A stretch of DNA of 24,536 nt, from positions 1 to 24,536 of the IMG/VR virus record IMGVR_UViG_3300035701_000280. The stretch is one strand, 5' to 3'. Shown piece by piece: positions 1-24,136 of the stretch; the stretch's first letter is position 1, and each line of letters starts with the position of its first letter. The stretch is from a virus. The notes under the pieces are model-generated. The model saw nothing but the letters and a program-made list of their open reading frames with translations. It did not search any database and was not told the origin of the DNA. The position numbers and the translations under genes are program-made.

Positions 1-249
1 GACGCCCTCGATCAGCGCGACGACGGGAACGACGATATGCTCGCGGCCGTCGAACTGGGCGGTGCGAATCGCGGCGGCAGCGGCATGGAGAGCGAGCGAT
101 CGGCGAGCGCTGGCGCTATAGCTGCCTTCTTTACCGATCGACCACGTGCAGATGGCAGCGGCGCTGGAAGAATCGTAACCGCGCTTCTGCACGCTCTCCC
201 AGCAGCGATGCCACTTGGCTGAATGGTGCTTACCTTTGCTTCCCGGCAT
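1..249 (-). CDS. Small phage protein with W..C..V..G...A...C..S.G motif (C-terminus cut by edge)
   Basis: The frame is open from an ATG at 249 to the window edge, giving 83 residues with no stop. It starts inside the end of the HELxE protein gene, with a 20-bp overlap that fits the tight packing of this arm. Residues 9-36 contain HSAKWHRCWESVQKRG followed by a short gap and AICTWSIG. This resembles a short module that I associate with small conserved proteins, and with the tails of other proteins, in phage head-gene regions. The pattern is a Trp/Cys pair, a basic helix, then A..C..S.G. The rest is Ala-rich and ends mid-protein. The function is unknown; a role in the head region is inferred only from position. 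A competing minus-strand frame over the same bases is Arg/Ser/Pro-rich and looks like a shadow. Confidence 0.6.
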   Translation of the reverse strand, partial: MPGSKGKHHSAKWHRCWESVQKRGYDSSSAAAICTWSIGKEGSYSASARRSLALHAAAAAIRTAQFDGREHIVVPVVALIEGV

Positions 250-793
250 TGGCGCTCCTCGGATCGATTGCCTGCTCGTACTGTCTCCAATTCACGTCGA
301 GCTGCGATGCGGTCATTCGCTCTATGACATCGGCGAATCGGTGTTCGCGACGGTACGGCGCATCGCGATGATCGCCAGGTTCGCTGCCGTCGTTCGCTGC
401 CCTCGCCGCCCCGAACTTCATGTCGAACTCGGTGATGGTGGACTCATCGACCGCGTGATGCTTGCACAGCGCCATCTCGACCAGTTCGTGTATCGCGACG
501 AGGAAGCTATAGCGCCAGTCGGGAAGGTTGCTGATCCGAATGTGCCATGCGCCGTCCTCCGCCATCCACCAGTCGCCTACGGTCGGGTAGCGTTGCTCCT
601 CAGCCGGAATCGACTGGATGATGACCGCGGGGAATCCGAGCGTGGTGGCCATCTCCGCCGTCACCATCGCATTCGCCGGCAGCTCCGGTACTGCCGGGTA
701 CGGTCTCGCTTTCGCTGCCGCGTCCGCCTTGCCTTGGCGTACTGCGCCTGCGCTGTCCTGACGCACTACGCCCGTTCGCGACTTCGCTTTCAT
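230..793 (-). CDS. Conserved phage protein with HELxE putative metal-binding motif
   Basis: 187 aa. The ATG overlaps the stop of the ATP-grasp gene (ATGA), so the two are translationally coupled. The first 45 residues are basic, Ala-rich and probably disordered. The core has a GDWWMAEDGAWHIRI strand-rich stretch, then a helix with AIHELVEMALCKHHAVDE. A Thr/Asp/Phe segment (TEFDMKF) and a C-terminal PYRREH....A..IER helix ending in W..Y follow. The His-Glu-x-x-Glu arrangement with later His residues recalls a metal site but is not a canonical HExxH zinc protease motif. I recognise the overall pattern as a recurrent hypothetical protein of tailed phages, but no function is established as far as I know. 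It lies at the downstream end of the head cassette. Confidence 0.75.
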   Translation of the reverse strand: MKAKSRTGVVRQDSAGAVRQGKADAAAKARPYPAVPELPANAMVTAEMATTLGFPAVIIQSIPAEEQRYPTVGDWWMAEDGAWHIRISNLPDWRYSFLVAIHELVEMALCKHHAVDESTITEFDMKFGAARAANDGSEPGDHRDAPYRREHRFADVIERMTASQLDVNWRQYEQAIDPRSANAGKQR

Positions 794-2103
794 AGCAACC
801 TCATCGATTTGAGCGCCGAGTATCGCCTCAGCGGTGCACCACGATAATTGTCGCGGTGCAGGTCGGTACGGAACGCCATATCGGGGAAGCTGATCGCCTC
901 ATTGAACAGCAGCTTATTCAGGCATCCTTCCGCCGCCTCCTCAATCGTGTAATCGTGATCGGTGAAGATTCCGATCTCGTTGCTGTAGCCAGCGAGGAGC
1001 AGGTCGGCGCCGGACTTGTAGCCCTCGAACGCGTAGAACTGCGGCGCTGCACGTGGGTTGATGTGAAGCGGGAGCCCGGCCCGCGGATGATCAATAAAGA
1101 GGGTAATGGATGCGCCGAACCCGGCACGGAAGCGGGACGGGATGGCAGCTATCTTGTCCGACTCGCCCTCCATCCAATCGACCATGGTGTCACCGAACCT
1201 GCCCAGCGCGCAAGTCAGGAAAAGATTGGGATGCGCGTTATAGCCGAATCGATTGCAGACCTCCAGGAACCAGGTCGCGTTGTCGCCCACGATCACGTTA
1301 ACATCGGCGAATCCGCTGTAGTTGCGCTGCCAGTAGAACGGGAACATGCGGCCGATCGTGCGCAGGACGAGTGGGGAGTCGAGCGGAACCACGAATGCGA
1401 TGTCACCCGCGCACCCGCTCATTTCACCGAGATCGTGATCCCACTTGCGCTTGTTCTCAAGATTGCAGACCGCCATGAACGGCGCGCCATCGTGGAACCA
1501 GACCTCCACATTGACCTCGACGCCCGGCTTGCGCTCCTGGAGGACGTAGCCACTCGCCATCTCGGGCTGATTCCGCAGATAGCACAGCAGCTCGTGATTC
1601 GCGTCCTCCACCTCCTCGCGGAACGGCACGAACGTCGAGAAGGCGGCATCGCTGGCATTCGGCTTGAGCACGTAGGCAGTCGTGGGGTGCTGCTCGACGA
1701 AGGCGACGCCGGCATCTACCCGGTCGAATGCGAACGTGGGAGGAGAGGGCAGTCCCATGCGGGCAGCGAGATCGACGGTAAAGGCGCGGTCATTCTCCAT
1801 CCGCTCACTCAACACGGAAGTGCCGAACACGTGCTGGCCAGCGCCGCGCAACCAATCGGCGACGGCTGACTGAATATTGCGCTCGAACAGCCAGTAGGTA
1901 GCGGGACCGAGCCGGGACTTGAGCGCGACCTCAAGCGGCTCACAATCGATCAGCCCACGACCGACGAGGTCGAACAGATCCAGCCTGTCCTCCTTTGGTC
2001 CCGGCGCCTTGGCGAACACAACCTGCTCTCCCTCCTCCTGGAGCTTCTTCGTCCAGCCAAGCCCGGAAGTATCCTGCGTCACCACGACAAAGAGTCGCGC
2101 CAC
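790..2103 (-). CDS. ATP-grasp enzyme resembling PurD (GAR synthetase-like)
   Basis: 437 aa, close to the usual PurD length. The start is a GTG directly after the TAA of the head gene, with a GGTGGTG stretch just upstream. A Rossmann-like N-domain begins RLFVVVTQDTSGLGW. The ATP-grasp part follows: a helix with DRAFTVDLAARMGLPSPP, the ATP-binding lysine in AYVLKPN (K147), then YVLQERKPGVEVNVEVW (E190). Next is NLENKRKWDHDLGEMSG, which lines up with the DHKR..DGD.GPNTGGMG block of PurD. Last is WFLEVCNRFGYNAHPN (E281, N284), matching the E.N.RFGDPE metal/ATP site but with FGD changed to FGY. The family ligates a carboxylate to an amine using ATP. The PurD-like changes and its place between head genes argue against a plain purine-synthesis role. 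Peptide or small-molecule ligation on a virion component is only inference. Confidence 0.82.
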   Translation of the reverse strand: MARLFVVVTQDTSGLGWTKKLQEEGEQVVFAKAPGPKEDRLDLFDLVGRGLIDCEPLEVALKSRLGPATYWLFERNIQSAVADWLRGAGQHVFGTSVLSERMENDRAFTVDLAARMGLPSPPTFAFDRVDAGVAFVEQHPTTAYVLKPNASDAAFSTFVPFREEVEDANHELLCYLRNQPEMASGYVLQERKPGVEVNVEVWFHDGAPFMAVCNLENKRKWDHDLGEMSGCAGDIAFVVPLDSPLVLRTIGRMFPFYWQRNYSGFADVNVIVGDNATWFLEVCNRFGYNAHPNLFLTCALGRFGDTMVDWMEGESDKIAAIPSRFRAGFGASITLFIDHPRAGLPLHINPRAAPQFYAFEGYKSGADLLLAGYSNEIGIFTDHDYTIEEAAEGCLNKLLFNEAISFPDMAFRTDLHRDNYRGAPLRRYSALKSMRLL

Positions 2104-2811
2104 TTACACCACCAGTCCTATCGTGCACCGGCATCGCGGGTGTGCGGGCGGTCCGTCCATTTCCTCACCGTCCACATCGAATGTATCGCCTAGTCCGGTC
2201 GTCTGTCCGTCCATTGGCTCGCAGATGTCGCATAGGCGGTCATCGGGAGTGGTTATCCACTCGACCTGCTCCTCACCGGTGAGTAGCCCATCCTCGACCG
2301 CCTGATCCCATGCCTCCAACTGACCCTCATTCGAGGCCCGCATCGTCTCCGTGCGCGCGATGTTATCGGCCCGATTCGGGTCATCGAGTAGCGCATTGAG
2401 CTCGTCCGCGATCTCGGCAACGGTTTTATCCTGGTCCTCGAATGCCGTCGCCATCGTATCGCGGATGTCGTCGCGCAAGGTCTCGCTGATGCCGTCGATG
2501 AGCTCGGCGCCGTGCTTGTCGATCCAGTCAACCGCGCGGGGATCGGTCGAGCGGAACTGGCTCTCGTCGCCCTTGCGATAATAGATCTCAACATTGGCGC
2601 GCGTATAGGGCGAGGGGGTGGACGGCTCGCCTGGTCCCGCGGCGGCGGCAGCAAGATTCAACTGTCTGCGCAATCGTAGCAATGACGAGTGCGCCGCGGT
2701 GTCGCGCACATCAGCGAGAGCGGCAAGTAATGGCGCACGGATTGCGGCCCTCATCGCCTCGCCAGCGACGGTAGCAACTTCCTCCGCGCTGTGGTAATTG
2801 CGCAAGATCAT
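2104..2811 (-). CDS. Phage head morphogenesis / minor capsid protein (SPP1 gp7 / Mu F type)
   Basis: 235 aa from an ATG at 2811, which lies 7 nt after the portal stop. The C-terminal half carries the family signature: ARTETMRASNEGQLEAW, then EWITTPDDRLCDICEPMDG, and a final PPAHPRCRCTIGL. The paired Cys/His residues are typical of the Phage_Mu_F/SPP1 gp7 domain. Such proteins sit at the portal vertex or inside the head and are encoded next to the portal. The frame stays open upstream to 3087, and codon composition looks native until about 2950, so the true start may lie within the portal gene. One candidate is the GTG at 2868. No convincing ribosome site precedes any of these starts. The stop TAA abuts the next gene's GTG. 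Confidence 0.85.
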   Translation of the reverse strand: MILRNYHSAEEVATVAGEAMRAAIRAPLLAALADVRDTAAHSSLLRLRRQLNLAAAAAGPGEPSTPSPYTRANVEIYYRKGDESQFRSTDPRAVDWIDKHGAELIDGISETLRDDIRDTMATAFEDQDKTVAEIADELNALLDDPNRADNIARTETMRASNEGQLEAWDQAVEDGLLTGEEQVEWITTPDDRLCDICEPMDGQTTGLGDTFDVDGEEMDGPPAHPRCRCTIGLVV

Positions 2812-2818
2812 CGCACGC

Positions 2819-4495
2819 TCAATTGAGACGCCGACTGCCACCCTCGTTGCGTCGAGCGCAGCCCGCACTACGCGCCTGAATCGGCCTATGAAACCTATCG
2901 GCCGTCGCGTGTGCGGGGTGCCGACCTCCTCTCGTCGCCCATCGCGATCCGGTAGTCGGCTGAATGGGCGATTCCACGATGCGCTGCTCCTCGATGGTAC
3001 CGGGTGTCGTATCCTTGCCAGGAAGCGCGACGACCGTATCCGCCGTATCCAGCGGGTCGAGTCCCAGGCAGTGATCGCGGATCTCATCGCCGGTTACGAC
3101 GATCTGAGCCGCGGACTTATTCAGGGCTGCCCACTTGCCCGCGATATCGGCGCGCTGATTCTCGTTCAGGTTCTTGATTTCGGGCCACTTCACTTCCCAT
3201 GACCCGGCCGGCTGCGGGAGCGCGCCCAGGCGGATGAGCCGATCGACAAATGGCTTGACGACCTGAGGACCGGCGAATTCAGTGCGGCGATCGAGGACCC
3301 GCTCGTCCCAATTGTCCGCGTCCGACGTGCCGGCCAGCTTCGCCTGCTCCGATCCCATGAGAATGCGCTGCGGAATTTCGCTGGCGGCCGAGATGAGCGC
3401 CATCAGTCCGTCCACATCCGCCGAGATGGAGGTCACCTCCGACCCGAGCGGCGTGGCGGTGATTCCTCGCGTCGTCAGCACCCGCCTGAGATCGTGCTCG
3501 TATTCGTCGATCTGATCCTTGAGCGCGTCGAGCTGCGGATACCGGCCCGTTGCCGGGTCTTTCGCGATCTGCACCATTGGATCGAGATCAAGAATGAGCC
3601 CCTGGTCAACCCGCTTCCAGTACGCCTCGGCTCCGCCCGCGGTGACCTTCTCAAGATCGTCGAGCAGATTCCACACCTTCTCAAGCCGCGGAATGCCGTA
3701 GACGTGATCGTCGAGCAGCGAATCGGCGATATGGAGGACGCGGGTGTAATGGACGCGGCGGCCGACGATCTCGGGAGTGTTCACTCGCGTGGTTGCGGAG
3801 GGAGCGAGCCGCCGTACCGCGTAGAAGGCGGGAAGCCCGAACCGAGGCGACTTGATGTCGGTGTCGAACTTCTCGATTTGCGCATCCTCCTCGCTGAACG
3901 GAGTAAGATAGACGAGCGAGTCGGCCGCCAGCGATTCGAGCGGGGTCTCCAGATCGCCCGGCGTGCCGAGCAGGATGATGGCATAACGGCCAAGGCCGGC
4001 GAGAATGTCGGCGCGGTGGAAGATAGCCCAGACGTTCAGCCGGCGCTCAAGCGCCTCCCAAGCGAGCTCGAACTGCGACTGCTCCGAGGCGTCCGATTCG
4101 ATGATCTCCGCGCCGCCGCGCCACGTGTGCTTCGGCGCCGCGGTGACGATGCGGGCTGCGACACCGTTGCGGCGGAAGCGGGAGCGGTACATCTGCGGCG
4201 TGATCGTGCGAGAGTAGCCGCATGCTCGGTAGAGATCACGCCGGCCGTGGAAGGTAATGCCGGCGATATTGTCCATGAAGCGCGAGCGCGACACCAGCGC
4301 CTGCGCCGCGGTGCGGAGCCGCGCGTCCTTTGATGCCAGCGCCCGCTTGACCGCAGTCCGATTCGCTGGCGTCCTCGCTGCGGCAGCACGATCGATCAGC
4401 GCCTCCGCCGCAGCGCGAAGGCCATCATCGCGCGAGCGTAGCGCCGATTTGATCACGGCGCCATTTCGCCGGCCTGAACGCTTGTGCTCTACCAT
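2819..4495 (-). CDS. Phage portal protein, DUF1073-like
   Basis: About 558 aa. An ATG at 4495 and a GTG at 4501 are both possible; either overlaps the terminase stop by a few bases, and neither has a strong ribosome site. The first 70 residues are basic and Ala-rich. The core matches the DUF1073 portal family, some of whose members are labelled 'anti-CBASS Acb1-like portal' in databases. It includes YRACGYSRTITPQMYRSRFRRNGVAARI, AGLGRYAIILLGTPGD, HYTRVLHIADSLLDDHVYG, AYWKRVDQGLILDLD, ASEIPQRILMGSEQ and LNENQRADIAGKWAALNK. It would form the dodecameric DNA-entry ring of the head and dock the terminase. The last 40 residues are Arg/Gly-rich with poorer codon bias and overlap the upstream extension of the head gene. 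Confidence 0.85.
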   Translation of the reverse strand: MVEHKRSGRRNGAVIKSALRSRDDGLRAAAEALIDRAAAARTPANRTAVKRALASKDARLRTAAQALVSRSRFMDNIAGITFHGRRDLYRACGYSRTITPQMYRSRFRRNGVAARIVTAAPKHTWRGGAEIIESDASEQSQFELAWEALERRLNVWAIFHRADILAGLGRYAIILLGTPGDLETPLESLAADSLVYLTPFSEEDAQIEKFDTDIKSPRFGLPAFYAVRRLAPSATTRVNTPEIVGRRVHYTRVLHIADSLLDDHVYGIPRLEKVWNLLDDLEKVTAGGAEAYWKRVDQGLILDLDPMVQIAKDPATGRYPQLDALKDQIDEYEHDLRRVLTTRGITATPLGSEVTSISADVDGLMALISAASEIPQRILMGSEQAKLAGTSDADNWDERVLDRRTEFAGPQVVKPFVDRLIRLGALPQPAGSWEVKWPEIKNLNENQRADIAGKWAALNKSAAQIVVTGDEIRDHCLGLDPLDTADTVVALPGKDTTPGTIEEQRIVESPIQPTTGSRWATRGGRHPAHATADRFHRPIQARSAGCARRNEGGSRRLN

Positions 4496-6000
4496 GTGCA
4501 CTCGCTGGGCGCTTCCTTGGTATCCGATGTCAGCTCGTCGTAGCCGGCCGAGGTGCCATCAACCTGATCATCGTAAGTGCTGTTAGGAAACCCGCACAGC
4601 TCGCGGATGTAATCGCGGTTCCAGGGAGCCCGCAGTACGCGCACGTTGCCGACCGACGCCTGCGACTTGAACGGACGCGCCCGCGTCACCTTATCACCGG
4701 TAGATGGCGCACCAGTATAAGGATAACCATGGAGCAGCTTCGCGTGCGCCGCGATCACCTTCTTACCGGCGGAGCCCGGCTCCTGCTCCTCGCGCTGGCG
4801 CACCTTCCTGCCGTCGCTCACTACGGTCGATCTGAATATTCCCGTATCGCCCTCGAATTCATCCGATCCCCACTGGCCGCGCACGACATCCTCGATGATG
4901 ATCAGACCGCCGCGGGTCAGCGCGAGCAGGACGCCCACTGAGTAGTCTCCCGCGCCCTCCGTGCCGGCGCAGTCCCAACCTCGGGCGCGGGCCACGATCT
5001 GCGATTCGGCCAGCATCACGTCAATTACAGGTAGCCACGCCTCCTTGAATAGACCGCCCGATTCAGGAATGGGCCGCTGCTGGCACTGACCGCTCACGCC
5101 GAATTCACCCATGGTAGCGCGAAGCTGCGCCTCCATCTTCTCGACTCGGGGAAGAGGGAACAGGTCGGGACACAGCAGCTCGCCCGGCTTCTCGCGCGGG
5201 TCCGTCCTGCCGAGTGGAGTTGGCGACATGCGCGGAGCGAGCACGCCGTCAACCACGGCAGGAGGCTCGTACCGCATCGGCAGGCAGATGAAGGTGTAAC
5301 GCTCGCGCAATTGGCGCAGGATATGCCCGCTAAGGTCGTCCTCGTGAAGGCGCTGCATGATGACGACCGTTACCGCATCAAGGGTAATGCCGCGCGAGCC
5401 GAGTGTCAGGTCGAACCAGGTAATGGCCTCGCGCCGTGATAGGGCGGAAAGGGAGCGCTTGACATTATGAGGATCGTCGATGATCTTGTAGTGCGGGTGC
5501 TCGCCCGTGCCCGGACCGCCGACCGATGTCGCCATGCGCCAGCCAGTCTTCTCATTCTCGTAGCGCGTCTTCATGTCGATGTCGTGGCGCATCGGTAAGG
5601 GCCATCTCGCCTGGTACCAGGGAGATTTGATGATGGTCCGCATTCGAAGTGAGTCGCGGACGGCGAGAGATTCATCGTACGAACCGCACAGGAATCGCTT
5701 CTCCGGGCAGTGAATCCACTCCCAGCTCGGCCACATCACCGAGACCAAGATCGACTTCATCGTGCCGGGCGGAACGTTGATCAGCGTGTCGCCCAGCTCT
5801 CCTGCGCTTATCGCTTCGAGGTGCTCGGCTAGAAAGCCGATGTGCCACGAATTGATGAAGGGAGTACGGGGCTCAATCAGGTGCCACGCCTGCTCGGTGA
5901 ATTCGATCAGGCTGCGCTCAGCCAGTTCTCGCTCGACCTCGAATAGATCGGGCACGGGATCGATGGCAGCGATGGACGGGAGCGTGGAGAACGATGTCAC
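4489..6000 (-). CDS. terL: Terminase large subunit (ATPase and nuclease)
   Basis: 503 aa, normal for TerL. The GTG start overlaps the TerS stop as GTGA. The N-terminal ATPase has INVPPGTMKSILVSVMWPSW, with a variant Walker A common in phage terminases (K82). It continues with a Trp-rich coupling segment, the acidic pair in YKIIDDPH (D175-D176) and VIMQRLHEDDLSGHIL. The C-terminal RNase-H-like nuclease begins at RGWDCAGTEGAGDYSVG (D343), has IIIEDVVRGQW as its second strand, and ends with the acidic FPNSTYDDQVDGTSAG motif. The enzyme cuts concatemeric DNA and pumps it into the procapsid through the portal encoded next. All catalytic landmarks are present, so it is probably functional. Confidence 0.93.
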   Translation of the reverse strand: MTSFSTLPSIAAIDPVPDLFEVERELAERSLIEFTEQAWHLIEPRTPFINSWHIGFLAEHLEAISAGELGDTLINVPPGTMKSILVSVMWPSWEWIHCPEKRFLCGSYDESLAVRDSLRMRTIIKSPWYQARWPLPMRHDIDMKTRYENEKTGWRMATSVGGPGTGEHPHYKIIDDPHNVKRSLSALSRREAITWFDLTLGSRGITLDAVTVVIMQRLHEDDLSGHILRQLRERYTFICLPMRYEPPAVVDGVLAPRMSPTPLGRTDPREKPGELLCPDLFPLPRVEKMEAQLRATMGEFGVSGQCQQRPIPESGGLFKEAWLPVIDVMLAESQIVARARGWDCAGTEGAGDYSVGVLLALTRGGLIIIEDVVRGQWGSDEFEGDTGIFRSTVVSDGRKVRQREEQEPGSAGKKVIAAHAKLLHGYPYTGAPSTGDKVTRARPFKSQASVGNVRVLRAPWNRDYIRELCGFPNSTYDDQVDGTSAGYDELTSDTKEAPSECTW

Positions 6001-6722
6001 CTCTCGCCTCCCGTGGGCACCGGCTCGACTTTCGCTTCCTTGAGCCAGTCGCGCATCTGTCGCAAGCGCTCCGTTGGGACTTTACTGAGGTCAACCGTAT
6101 GGGCGAGTTCGACGGGGCCGCCACCAGGACCGCTGATCTCGGCGCGATCACGGAATACATCACCGCGGCGGCCCTTCAAGTAGAAGATCAGGCACGCGTC
6201 CGACTTGCGCGTTACCGTGTCAACCCGCTCGCCCTGGTAATGCACCGGCTCCTGGATGCCATGAACGCCGCGTCGCTTCAATTCAGCTTCAGCCTCATCG
6301 ACGACCTCCTCGGTCGCAATCCTGAAGTGAGCGGCGAACGTGGGATCTTCCTTCATCCATGAGTAATACGTCGTCTGCGGTATATCTGCGGCCTGACATG
6401 CGGAGCTGATGACGCCGGCCAGTACATACGCTTCCAGGAATGCGGCTTTACGATCAGCGACAGGCGGATTCGGCCTACCCGGAGTAGGACCGCCCAGATC
6501 GCTTACACGGCGCGGTGTCTTAGGCAATGCCGCTCTGAACGATTCCAGCGGCGAGAGCGCACTGCTTTCTTTTTTTCCCGCTATGATCCCACGATCGGTT
6601 GCAGGAGCAGCGGTAGCGCTGAGTTTGGCGGCTTTGGTAGATTTATCTGCAACGGCTCGCGGTGATCGGCTTGACTTATGCCGAGAGGTAGCGAGTGGCG
6701 GGCGAGTACGGCGATTTGCCAA
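5997..6722 (-). CDS. terS: Terminase small subunit
   Basis: 241 aa. The chosen start is a TTG at 6722 with AGGA nine bases upstream; there is no in-frame ATG before the conserved domain. The first 80 residues are Lys/Arg/Ala/Pro-rich and look disordered. From about residue 85 there is a helix-turn-helix of the kind found in phage TerS and related proteins: RKAAFLEAYVLAGVISSACQAADIPQTTYYSWMKEDPTF. Next come AHFRIATEEVVDEAEAELKRR and KSDACLIFYLKGRRGDVFRDR. It would recognise the packaging site and load the large subunit, whose GTG overlaps this gene's stop. The unusually long basic N-terminus and the weak start leave the exact 5' end uncertain. Confidence 0.85.
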   Translation of the reverse strand: MANRRTRPPLATSRHKSSRSPRAVADKSTKAAKLSATAAPATDRGIIAGKKESSALSPLESFRAALPKTPRRVSDLGGPTPGRPNPPVADRKAAFLEAYVLAGVISSACQAADIPQTTYYSWMKEDPTFAAHFRIATEEVVDEAEAELKRRGVHGIQEPVHYQGERVDTVTRKSDACLIFYLKGRRGDVFRDRAEISGPGGGPVELAHTVDLSKVPTERLRQMRDWLKEAKVEPVPTGGER

Positions 6723-16497: not shown

Positions 16498-18186
16498 ATG
16501 CCGCCTACGCCATCCGAAGTCGGCCTACCGTGCAGGTTCACTGCCTACCGCCGCGGCCAATTCGAGGCAGCGCTGGCGGCAGCCACATCCGAGCGCCGAT
16601 TCGTCATGCTATCATCGCCGACTGGCAGCGGCAAGAGCGTCATCTACATGAGCGCAGCCCGCTTGAACGATGCGCGCACTCTAATCTTGACCAGCACCAA
16701 GGGACTGCAGGCGCAGCTCCTTGCCGATTTCGACACAATAGGGCTCGCCGACGTGCGAGGGCAGAACAATTATCGCTGCACCGCGGCAGACAAGGACGGA
16801 CCGCTAAGCGATTTCGGGAATGCGACCGGGGCACCGACTATGTGTGATGGCGCGCCGTGCCACATCGGGGTCCATTGCCCATACAAGAAGGACGCGGAGG
16901 GCAATCGCCCCGCGGAGGGCTGCTCCTACGAGGACGCGGTGGAGCAGGCAAGGACGGCGCAATTCGTCGTGACCAATTACGCCTACTGGATGACGACGGG
17001 AAAATTCGCCGATCCCGGCGCACTCGGCGAGTTCGATCTGCTGGTACTCGATGAGGCCCACGCAGCGCCGGATGAGCTCGCCGATTTTTGCGCGGTCCGC
17101 GTCGATCGGGACGAGCTCAAGCTGATCGGAATGGCGTTACCGCCGCTCGACGAGGGTACGGATGCGTGGGCGGGCTGGGCGGTGACGGCGCTAAACGCAT
17201 GTAGGGCGAAATATGTAGAAGCGCGGCGCGAGTTCGGCGCGATCGGAGCGGACAGGAGGAAGGCGGCGCGAATGCTGCGCAGGCTGACCGACCTCGGGCG
17301 CGGGCTAAAGGAGCTCGCATCGGCGCACAGATGGCGGCGGGCCGATCCGGGTAATCCCGATGTGTGGATGCCGGGAGCGCAGGTCGATTGGGTAGCCGAG
17401 GCGGTACCGACCGGCGCGCTGTTCTCACCGGTATGGGCGCACGCCTATGCCGAGGAATATCTGTTTCGCAAGATCCCGAGAGTAGTCATGGTGAGCGCAG
17501 TCCTGCAGCGAGCCACGGCGCGGTATCTGGGGATCGACGACGGCGTGCTCGACTACCGCGAATTCCCATCGACGTTCGATCCGAAGCGGCGCCCGCTCAT
17601 CTACGTGAGAACGACGAATGTGGATCGCCACATGAATGAGGGGCAGACGCGAATCTGGCTCAACCGGATCGACGCGATTGTAGCGGGCCGGCTCGACAGG
17701 AAGGGCATCATCCACACTCGCAGCTACGAGCGGGCGCGGATCATCACGGCAAGATCGAAGCATCGCGACATCATGATCACGCACACGAGCCGGACGACGC
17801 GAGATGCAGTAGCGCGATTCAGACAGGCGAAGGCGCCGTGCGTGATCGTGTCGCCCTCGCTTGAAGAGGGCTACGATTTTCCCGACGACCAGTGCAGGTA
17901 CCAGATCATCGCGAAGGTCCCGTTCGTCGATTCGCGCTCGGCCATCATGCGAGCGCGAGCGAAGAGCGACAAGGGCTACCTCAACTACCTTACTGTCCTA
18001 TCGCTCATCCAGCAAACCGGGAGAGGAATGCGGGCGGAAAGCGATATGTGCGAGAATTTCATCGTTGACGATCACATTGCCTGGTTCTGGCATGCAGCGA
18101 AGGCGATGTTTCCTCGCTGGTTCAAGGCGGCGTGGCGCAGCGAGGCGACGGTGCCACCAGCGATGGCGATGAGGAGAACGAGATGA
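16498..18186 (+). CDS. DinG/XPD-like Fe-S superfamily 2 helicase
   Basis: 562 aa, ATG 9 nt after the previous stop with a weak ribosome site. Walker A is SSPTGSGKS (K46) and the DEAH box is LLVLDEAHA (185-188). Between them lie C94, C116, C121, C127 and C142 (MCDGAPCHIGVHCPYK, EGCSYEDA), the place and spacing class of the 4Fe-4S domain of XPD/DinG/RAD3. The C-terminal half has SAVLQRAT, a VSPSLEEGYDFPDD motif V-like block, and LIQQTGRGMR (motif VI). These enzymes unwind DNA 5'-3', often on R-loops, D-loops or replication forks. It is shorter than host DinG and is co-transcribed with small phage genes, so it is likely a phage replication or recombination helicase. Confidence 0.88.
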   Translation: MPPTPSEVGLPCRFTAYRRGQFEAALAAATSERRFVMLSSPTGSGKSVIYMSAARLNDARTLILTSTKGLQAQLLADFDTIGLADVRGQNNYRCTAADKDGPLSDFGNATGAPTMCDGAPCHIGVHCPYKKDAEGNRPAEGCSYEDAVEQARTAQFVVTNYAYWMTTGKFADPGALGEFDLLVLDEAHAAPDELADFCAVRVDRDELKLIGMALPPLDEGTDAWAGWAVTALNACRAKYVEARREFGAIGADRRKAARMLRRLTDLGRGLKELASAHRWRRADPGNPDVWMPGAQVDWVAEAVPTGALFSPVWAHAYAEEYLFRKIPRVVMVSAVLQRATARYLGIDDGVLDYREFPSTFDPKRRPLIYVRTTNVDRHMNEGQTRIWLNRIDAIVAGRLDRKGIIHTRSYERARIITARSKHRDIMITHTSRTTRDAVARFRQAKAPCVIVSPSLEEGYDFPDDQCRYQIIAKVPFVDSRSAIMRARAKSDKGYLNYLTVLSLIQQTGRGMRAESDMCENFIVDDHIAWFWHAAKAMFPRWFKAAWRSEATVPPAMAMRRTR

Positions 18187-20634: not shown

Positions 20635-21243
20635 ATGGCGCCGAGACTCATCGCAGCCGGTATACCCGATCTCCTGCCGATGGAGCGCGGCGGCGAGCCG
20701 GGTTGCCACATCTCGGCCATCATTCGCTCGCTCTGCCTCAGGCTCGGCCATTTCGAGGATGGCGGCGAAATCGACGAGAAGCAGCAGACCCGGATGGAAT
20801 TGGGCTGTGCGTTCGAGGATGCGGTAGCGAAAGCACTCGCGGCTCGCTGGGCGAAGGCTTACCCGGATCGCTACGCGCAGCCGGGTGAGATGGAGAAGGA
20901 CGGCCTGATTGGGACCATGGACTTACTGGACGTGATCGATTGGGCCGCGGTTGAGATCAAGCTGACCTGGATGTCGAGCCGGCACGAGATCGAATCGGTG
21001 AAGTTCTGGCGTTATTGGGCCCAACTCAAGGCGTACTGCTACATGGCCGAAACGAGAATTGGCCGCCTCCACATCGGCCACATCAACGGCAACTACCGCG
21101 ACGACCGCGGACCGAATTATAATGTGTGGGAGGATGAGTTCAGCAAGCAGGCACTGGCTGAGAATTGGCGTATGCTCATTACTCACGCAGAGGTCATGCG
21201 AACGGGCAAGGTGGGAGCGAGGCTACGTGCTAAACACCGATAG
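20635..21243 (+). CDS. PD-(D/E)XK exonuclease (RecB/Cas4-like)
   Basis: 202 aa from the ATG at 20635, with AGGGTGAGCGCAA before it. Motifs in order: MELGCAFEDAVAKALAARW with E61, LIGTMDLLDV with D96, then VEIKLT with E107 and K109. YWAQLKAYCYMAE gives the Q130...Y134 pair typical of RecB-family nucleases. The catalytic set looks complete. These enzymes degrade or process DNA ends, and in phages they pair with annealing or Sak-type proteins. No Fe-S Cys cluster like that of Cas4 is seen. The last residues overlap the methyltransferase start by 17 bp. Confidence 0.85.
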   Translation: MAPRLIAAGIPDLLPMERGGEPGCHISAIIRSLCLRLGHFEDGGEIDEKQQTRMELGCAFEDAVAKALAARWAKAYPDRYAQPGEMEKDGLIGTMDLLDVIDWAAVEIKLTWMSSRHEIESVKFWRYWAQLKAYCYMAETRIGRLHIGHINGNYRDDRGPNYNVWEDEFSKQALAENWRMLITHAEVMRTGKVGARLRAKHR

Positions 21244-22051
21244 AACGGCGACGGCGGCAGCACAATCGAGGGCAGCGAGAGAACTGGTCGATCCAGGCGC
21301 GGGCGCGATCCGTAACCTTCCAGCGCTGGATTTACTCAAAACGGTAGCGGACGGCGCCGCAGGTGCGGTGATAACGGACCCGCCATTCTTCATCGGGATT
21401 AAGCGGGACGCTGGTGGCGCCGGGTGCGATCCTTGGGTCGGTGGGGTCGTATCAGTATTCGACGAGATGATCGCCTGGTCGATGCCACATGCTGTCCAAG
21501 TCGCGCGTATCCTGCGACCAGGCGGTGCATCGGTCGTCATGGGCGGATCGCAGTCGATCTCGGCCTGGGAGGTCGCAGCGGGACGGGCGGGACTCGTATG
21601 GATGGCGGAGCTGGTCATATTGTGGAACACAGGCAAGCCAAGAGCGCGCAAATTCGGATCGCTGACCACGCTGATCCGATGGCACGCCAAGCCGGGCTCA
21701 CGCCATGCGTTCAATTCGGGCGGACTACGCGCCATCTACTCCAATGTACTGGTGTGCGATAAGGTACCGCTGAACGAGCGCCACCATATCGCACAAAAGC
21801 CAGTCGAATTGACCAACTTCCTGGTAAGCTTGCTGACGCACGACGGCGACCTGATAGTCGATCCATTCTGTGGCAGTGGCTCGACCCTCGTCAGCGCTGC
21901 GATGTGCGAGCGGCGCTGGCTGGGAGGCGATACTGACATCGAGCAGTGCCGGATAGCCGAGACGAGAATAGGTCAGCTCGAGCTCGAGGAGGCGAACCTG
22001 CGCCCGCTGCACCTGTGGATCAACGGGCGATTACAATTAGTGGAAGGGTAG
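21227..22051 (+). CDS. DNA methyltransferase (beta-type, N6-adenine/N4-cytosine)
   Basis: 274 aa from the GTG at 21227 inside the nuclease end; the 56 codons before it are a shadow of the nuclease. The order of motifs is catalytic first: GAVITDPPFFIG (D51-F54, motif IV), and later IVDPFCGSGSTLVSAAM (D212, motif I, SAM-binding), then RWLGGDTDIEQCRIAETRI. This order is that of beta-class DNA methylases. DPPF fits adenine N6 or cytosine N4 methylation. There is no restriction endonuclease partner next to it, so it may protect phage DNA from host restriction. Confidence 0.88.
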   Translation: MLNTDRTATAAAQSRAARELVDPGAGAIRNLPALDLLKTVADGAAGAVITDPPFFIGIKRDAGGAGCDPWVGGVVSVFDEMIAWSMPHAVQVARILRPGGASVVMGGSQSISAWEVAAGRAGLVWMAELVILWNTGKPRARKFGSLTTLIRWHAKPGSRHAFNSGGLRAIYSNVLVCDKVPLNERHHIAQKPVELTNFLVSLLTHDGDLIVDPFCGSGSTLVSAAMCERRWLGGDTDIEQCRIAETRIGQLELEEANLRPLHLWINGRLQLVEG

Positions 22052-23326: not shown

Positions 23327-24136
23327 ATGGCGATAAAGCTCCGATCGACGACAGCGCAGCGCATCAACGCGGGGCTCGGCGGCGAAAGCGTGAAATGGGA
23401 GCCCGCCCCTACCGAGTTCACGCGGCGCTGCGTCTCCATGCTCATCTATGGCGACACGGATACGGGGAGAACGACTCTCGCTCTGACCGCGCCGGGACCG
23501 ATCGGGTTCGCGCACGCAGCCGAGAAGATCGAGGGTATCATACAGAAGGCGGCGCGAGAGAAGAAGGTGCACACCGTCAACTTCGGCGGCGTCTTCCGCG
23601 GCAGCCCACAAGAGATTGCGGACCAGGCCAACCCGATATGGACGAGGTTGGCAGCGCGCTGGTACGACGGATATCGCTGGGCACGCACGCTCATCATGGA
23701 TTCAGATACGGAGGCGTGGGAGCTGCTCAGGCTGGCGAGGTTCGGCGAGGTGACGCCGCGGGGAAGGACCGAAAACCTGTACGGCCCGGTCAATGCGGAA
23801 TGGCGATCGATGTTCAAGCAATTCCGCCAGCAGGACGCCTGCAACGTCATCACGATCGGGGAGACGAAGGACGAGTATCGCGAGGTCAACAAAGGCGGAG
23901 TAAGGAGCAGCGAGCGCACCGGGCGGACGGTACGCGCGGGTCAGAAGGAGATGGCTTACATGGCGGATGTGGTCATCCGCTGCGATCGTACTGGGATCGG
24001 GGGAGATTTCACCGCGACAATCGAGAAGGGCTGGTTCAACGCGCACAGCGAAGGAATGACGGTCGAGAACGAAGATTGCAGGTTCAGCTACCTCATGAGC
24101 TTGATCACTGAGACGGAAGAGAGCGAGTGGGAATGA
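23327..24136 (+). CDS. Sak4-like RecA-fold ATPase
   Basis: 269 aa with AAGGAGATAGTGCGCA before the ATG. Near the start is MLIYGDTDTGRTTLALTAPG, a P-loop in which the usual lysine is Arg48. TLIMDSDTEAWELL supplies the Walker B acid (D125). Later blocks include YGPVNAEWRSMFKQFRQQDA, VITIGETKDEY and KEMAYMADVVIR. This is the layout of phage AAA_24/Sak4-type proteins, which promote strand annealing with a single-strand binding protein. The Arg in the P-loop may be normal in part of this phage family. Stop overlaps the next ATG (ATGA). Confidence 0.82.
   Translation: MAIKLRSTTAQRINAGLGGESVKWEPAPTEFTRRCVSMLIYGDTDTGRTTLALTAPGPIGFAHAAEKIEGIIQKAAREKKVHTVNFGGVFRGSPQEIADQANPIWTRLAARWYDGYRWARTLIMDSDTEAWELLRLARFGEVTPRGRTENLYGPVNAEWRSMFKQFRQQDACNVITIGETKDEYREVNKGGVRSSERTGRTVRAGQKEMAYMADVVIRCDRTGIGGDFTATIEKGWFNAHSEGMTVENEDCRFSYLMSLITETEESEWE

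Follow-up and report, generated by a model that had tools for sequence, protein, structure and literature searches.

The window (the whole stretch of DNA that was analysed) is a 24.5-kb virus record, and this record is probably a fragment. On its minus strand, HMM searches give the gene order TerS, TerL, portal and MuF, then the ATP-grasp and HELxE genes and the beginning of a DUF2213-like gene, with the following features.

5997-6722, minus strand: TerS, terminase small subunit (phrog_4044, 5.6e-32)
4489-6000, minus strand: TerL, terminase large subunit (phrog_38, 4.8e-71)
2819-4501, minus strand: portal protein (phrog_146, 5.5e-62; Phage_portal_3)
2104-3087, minus strand: MuF-like head morphogenesis protein, maximal ORF (Phage_Mu_F, 4.9e-12; phrog_2468)
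2101-2106, minus strand: zero-base junction, the MuF stop codon TAA and then the in-frame GTG start of the ATP-grasp gene (GTGGTGTAAGTGGCG)
790-2103, minus strand: PurD-fold ATP-grasp protein, 437 aa, GTG start (ORF; weak purD and GARS_A matches; AlphaFold model)
790-793, minus strand: ATGA overlap of the ATP-grasp stop and the HELxE start (CTATGAAAG)
230-793, minus strand: HELxE protein, 187 aa, predicted zincin-like metalloprotein and conserved partner of the ATP-grasp protein (locus pairing and model)
1-249, minus strand: N-terminus (83 codons) of a DUF2213-like head protein, truncated where the contig ends (similarity to locus L003)

The preliminary description had placed an ATP-grasp ORF between the MuF and HELxE genes, with a zero-base junction on one side and an ATGA overlap on the other, and this arrangement is borne out on the minus strand at 790-2103. 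The 3' end of the MuF gene reads ...GTG GTG TAA, and the GTG start of the ATP-grasp gene follows directly, in the same reading frame. Given this junction and the ATGA overlap with the HELxE gene, co-expression of the ATP-grasp gene with the head genes is a fair inference.

The MuF and ATP-grasp genes are in one frame, parted by TAA alone (2101-2106, minus strand), and readthrough would yield a fusion protein. The maximal MuF ORF shares 269 bp (2819-3087) with the portal ORF, hence the true MuF start is probably internal to this ORF, downstream of 3087. The DUF2213-like fragment, for which no Pfam match of its own was found, shares 69% identity with the L003 DUF2213 protein across 26 aa; in related phages, the DUF2213 proteins come after MuF, and the fragment matches their N-terminal part. 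The plus strand of the window carries genes for a DNA helicase (phrog_2488; 16498-18186), an N6/N4 DNA methyltransferase (21059-22051) and a Sak4-like/AAA_24 protein (23327-24136).

The similarity of the ATP-grasp protein to PurD is above chance. It matches NCBIfam purD (TIGR00877) at 5.4e-9 with 35.4 bits against a cut-off of 288, scores 17.9 for GARS_A against a cut-off of 27, and finds PurDs in the PDB at 1.2e-7 by sequence and at 1.5e-26 by profile. Its AlphaFold model (48-sequence alignment; pLDDT 93.3, pTM 0.91) matches PurD in Foldseek at 1.9e-23 and aligns structurally with GAR synthetases from end to end with Z of 28-30 (top Z 30.4 over 394 residues, 2QK4), and ranks 1-13 of the structural match list are all PurDs. 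The model and the Foldseek matches place the protein in the ATP-grasp superfamily by fold, and the earlier view of a PurD-like enzyme stands, as regards the fold, on the sequence searches, the model and the superposition. With the branch of PurK, PurT and the biotin carboxylases the protein shares the ATP-grasp core, but the Z there is lower (about 21-22 against 30), and the window lacks a carboxylase context.

PurD is the best family match both by sequence and by structure, and virus surveys list purD/GART among viral auxiliary metabolic genes (PMC11097641, PMC11360552), as would suit a true PurD engaged in purine synthesis. The motifs point elsewhere. Residues were counted in 48 family sequences aligned with six PurDs, and the window positions concerned are these.

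1663-1665, minus strand: K147, the ATP-binding lysine (48/48 in the family, invariant in the six PurDs)
1405-1428, minus strand: GEMSGCAG (226-233), the counterpart of PurD GPNTGGMG (PurD alignment)
1234-1263, minus strand: E281-V-C283-N-R285-FGYNA, the counterpart of PurD E-F-N-x-RFGDPE (family counts)

The RFGDPE signature is RFGYNA in the window, and its Asp and Glu occur in 0/48 family sequences, as do the Arg and Glu of GGREH; the P, G and N of PGN are found in 6, 1 and 2 of the 48, and the PL residues of PurD are lost or rare. In the counterpart of E-F-N-x-RFGDPE, E281 and R285 are retained, and the Asn and the DPE are gone: the Asn of E-x-N is seen in none of the 48, its place being taken by Thr (46/48) or Cys (2/48; C283 in the window). 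The hinge Glu that is invariant in PurD aligns with Q189. Thus, the comparison with PurD that had been proposed as a check yields a divided answer, since superposition and alignment give the PurD fold, whereas the PurD motif set is absent. That FGYNA replaces FGDPE and that the GPNTGGMG block is altered had been read correctly, and the loss of the PurD-specific residues proves to be family-wide.

The score of 35 bits against 288 further argues against a true PurD, as do the surroundings, where no other pur genes are found nearby, and four MAGs, each with a family member (425-630 bits) and, apart from it, a gene that scores as PurD (101-129 bits). We consider a purine-synthesis role very improbable, and the auxiliary metabolic gene reading was rejected on the motifs. 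In turn, some of the surveyed viral purD/GART genes (PMC11097641, PMC11360552) may belong to the family described here and not to purine synthesis. Six loci from GenBank 'phage' records (L056-L061) carry bacterial-type purD genes, with L061 in a purine operon; these look like bacterial contamination and served as PurD references only.

What the family has kept is the core for ATP and phosphoryl transfer (K147, K218, E281, R285). K147, E216, K218, D267, E281 and R285 are invariant (48/48), including the ATP-site Lys (K147) and the metal-site Glu (E281) of the superfamily. Common to the family and the six PurDs are E103, K147, G194, K218, G226, G230, G264, E281, R285, G287, P340, R412 and D414. 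Compared with PurD (1GSO, 2QK4, 2YW2), the window protein is therefore alike in full-length fold, size, the ATP lysine, the Glu of E-x-N, RxG, GxE and the C-terminal R412/D414, and differs in that its family has no FGDPE, GGREH, PGN or E-x-N Asn, has Gln for the hinge Glu, has its own invariants R106, E216 and D267 (with Q189 in 45/48), lies in a virion-operon context and has the HELxE partner. Four ATP-site residues had been listed as kept: K147 and E281 indeed are, E190 is only mostly so (39/48, the hinge Glu itself corresponding to Q189), and N284 was one position off, as the PurD Asn aligns with C283.

By all available signs from sequence and model, the protein would behave like an ATP-grasp ligase, and by its defining motifs it would not be a PurD. 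With Thr or Cys at the E-x-N Asn position (N283 of PurD) and Gln for the hinge Glu, both of which count against it, catalytic competence remains a prediction. PurK and PurT likewise lack the Asn in E-x-N.

The same replacements, a second subfamily still further changed in this region (see below) and the virion-operon location would fit a non-catalytic use of the fold, structural or regulatory, for example as a virion component or a chaperone. Against it stand the invariance of K147, K218, E281 and R285, the low dN/dS (median 0.091 in the largest podovirus cluster, 94 members), by which the family, as seen in this one cluster, is under purifying selection, and an intein (LAGLIDADG_3) in the ATP-grasp gene of another locus (L195:7782-10022), inserted exactly after E-A-T of the E-x-T motif beside the catalytic Glu. 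Insertion after such a motif is typical of inteins in active sites. A non-catalytic role is accordingly regarded as rather unlikely.

The family is large and almost unannotated. The window protein alone, in a single-sequence scan, gave no IMG/VR match, and its sole GenBank phage match lies in MW202796, in an ORF for which the record annotates no feature. This ORF led to 49 close relatives in IMG/VR, and alignment-based searches to at least 439 IMG/VR places. Two family members searched against PHROG had no significant match, and no full-length match to the family was found in BFVD, where the best viral TM on the query was 0.41, as against 0.64-0.69 for cellular PurDs. Of the relatives, L199 is the closest (43-44% identity); it shares the window's gene order, with HELxE following ATP-grasp, and a fully supported grouping unites the two. 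The family member of the Methylococcaceae, Elusimicrobia and Sphingomonas MAGs lies in each case on a contig of phage-derived appearance. A homologue in a Planctomycetota MAG (L124:7800-9092) has RFGYP for RFGDPE and lies next to a small zinc-ribbon-like ORF; due to a transport-permease-like gene on the same contig, the family may be not strictly viral.

The preliminary description had suggested that an adjacent small protein could be a partner, and the HELxE protein answers to this. Its central motif in the window is as follows.

476-490, minus strand: HELVE (H102-E106) of the HELxE protein (alignment of 38 sequences)

A scan with two HELxE sequences found 104 IMG/VR places. A PurD-like ATP-grasp gene, of the family or of the second divergent subfamily, is present in 46 of the 67 loci with a scored HELxE ORF, at a distance within 1 kb in 43 of these 46 and within 100 bp in 31, as compared to 0/25 portal-matched control loci (Fisher p 6e-10). 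After clustering at 70% identity, the pair is kept in 32/49 HELxE clusters, in both gene orders (p 8e-9); the search was seeded with two already-paired loci, so the paired fraction may be inflated. The occurrence of both gene orders and of two ATP-grasp subfamilies makes a single ancestral arrangement hard to reconcile with the pairing. Genomic linkage thus identifies HELxE as a real partner of the ATP-grasp protein, a pairing that is new here. A homologue of the window HELxE, 42% identical, lies close to the ATP-grasp gene in L196 and in L197. Most podovirus loci have no HELxE, hence the partnership is optional; in L002 and L006, which cover the MW202796 record, HELxE was likewise not detected.

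The second subfamily matches the ATP-grasp family over the full length by profile (Prob 99.9, E 1.4e-34), and its members tested against Pfam (L206, L209, L251, L205) had no matches. It lies beside HELxE in L203, L204, L206, L209, L222, L226, L234, L247, L251 and others, often right after the portal. In 21 HELxE loci, no ATP-grasp gene was detected within the sequence retrieved, or one on the opposite strand only (L238); they are found among L215, L221, L236-L244, L246, L248, L252, L254-L256, L271-L274 and L277.

H102, E103, E106, H151 and E158 are invariant in the 38 HELxE sequences. In the model (pLDDT 83.5), a small sheet is followed by helices bearing H102-E103-x-x-E106 and H151/E158. The best structural matches are zincins (CapP, IrrE, SprT-like proteins, YbeY), with low Z of 4.5-5.3 and no Foldseek match at E <0.001. 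The layout of a small sheet and an HE-helix resembles that of the zincin-type mini-metallopeptidases (IrrE/ImmA type, SprT, YbeY, abylysin), but the window protein has HExxE in place of the HExxH zinc motif, an invariant His and an invariant Glu lie on a helix further along, the Z is low, and no Pfam family match was obtained. The HELxE profile had no meaningful sequence match in the PDB, and two HELxE proteins searched against GenBank phages had none there. The model and the invariant residues support a metalloprotein, and do not firmly indicate an active protease.

Members of the ATP-grasp family are found among virion genes in several phage types. In the podovirus cluster, the gene lies between a large upstream gene and a tail-fibre gene followed by lysozyme, and overlaps the upstream gene by exactly four bases in 15 of 30 representatives (<75% identity); the upstream gene is inferred from gene order and size, without PHROG confirmation, to encode an ejection protein. 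In another phage (L128) the ATP-grasp gene is between a Phage_base_V gene and the gp25/Baseplate_J genes, and in L234 it is placed after the portal. The expectation of expression together with virion genes is supported by this neighbourhood. As for conservation of the location, the place among virion genes is kept, while the exact slot varies between phage types. The 25 loci retrieved through the portal of the window all lack the ATP-grasp gene, therefore it is not a fixed part of the window-type head module. The interval between MuF and DUF2213 is variable in related phages (L169-L193, L003), holding LamG-type proteins (Laminin_G_3 in L003), small ORFs or nothing (L176), so in the window the pair sits in an accessory slot, unlike the podovirus clade, where the place of the ATP-grasp gene is fixed. 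L175 has a gene with a Fib_succ_major domain between portal and MuF.

This neighbourhood allows more than one reading. If the pair made or remodelled a soluble amide or an envelope precursor, it would merely share the late operon with the virion genes, and could serve lysis, superinfection exclusion or a change of the host surface. Small molecules are the substrates of PurD and its relatives, the relatives of the window hold unrelated cargo in the variable slot occupied by the pair, and lysozyme-type genes are close by in several loci; however, the pair is not accompanied by further metabolic genes, and the place of the gene, flanked by the large upstream gene and the tail-fibre gene, is fixed in one large podovirus group. 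We see this reading as unlikely, though worth keeping in view.

Modification of a host protein by attachment of an amino acid is proposed, in the source passages available, for another phage ATP-grasp clade, the R2K (CDC123-like)/RimK-type enzymes (PMC4431377, PMC7824862). These have the ATP-grasp fold and occur in phages, but the BFVD viral matches to the window model do not exceed TM 0.41, the fold family differs from R2K, the same passages do not report the R2K/RimK-type as virion-operon genes, and the position of the window gene is late and virion-linked. We judge host-protein modification improbable. Phage ATP-grasp enzymes described in the parts of the literature at hand are R2K-type proteins, RNA ligases and a 291-aa early-region protein of a LUZ24-like phage, and for none of these do those parts describe a PurD fold in a virion operon. 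Our literature search found no description of the ATP-grasp family or of the ATP-grasp/HELxE pair.

The reading we tentatively prefer, with a probability slightly short of even, is a catalytically competent carboxylate-amine ligase of the PurD fold that makes no GAR and has a late, virion-linked target on which HELxE also acts. It draws on the full-length PurD fold with K147, E216, K218, D267, E281 and R285 invariant while the PurD motifs are lost, on purifying selection, on the intein at the E-x-T motif, on the virion-gene neighbourhood and on the HELxE pairing. With Mg-ATP, the enzyme would phosphorylate a carboxylate to an acyl-phosphate, which would then be joined to an amine to give an amide. 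The amine would be carried by a protein, a peptide or a small molecule that is produced late in infection, the substrate class being most likely one made or delivered with the virion, and the target would most likely be a virion or ejected phage protein. HELxE, as a small zincin-like metalloprotein, would probably have the same target, which it might, for instance, trim ahead of ligation or free of the added group, and co-transcription with the head genes would make the reaction coincide with particle assembly. A comparison of the different phage types gave no putative target protein common to them. The earlier suggestions of capsid-protein modification or peptide synthesis by the ATP-grasp protein are plausible; taken as a whole, the earlier observation is confirmed, and its interpretation is partly supported and extended.

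Hundreds of uncultured phages have a relative among their virion genes, in many cases next to a small metalloprotease-like protein, so the family probably represents an undescribed late-infection chemistry. It is possible, if doubtful, that the ATP-grasp protein and HELxE together make up a new phage module of two enzymes which, late in infection, covalently tags a virion or ejected protein or brings it to maturity. Such a module would be common among uncultured tailed phages, where it would so far have gone unnoticed behind unannotated genes or genes listed as purD auxiliary metabolism. What emerges is a large, almost unannotated phage enzyme family predicted to join molecules with ATP late in infection, whose conserved HELxE partner makes it a directly testable two-component system. 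If a virion protein is modified, capsid, tail or ejection proteins would undergo a maturation of a new type; if the product is a small molecule, phages would have a late metabolic function that is new. In both cases, a viral 'purD' counted as purine auxiliary metabolism needs to be checked for FGDPE.
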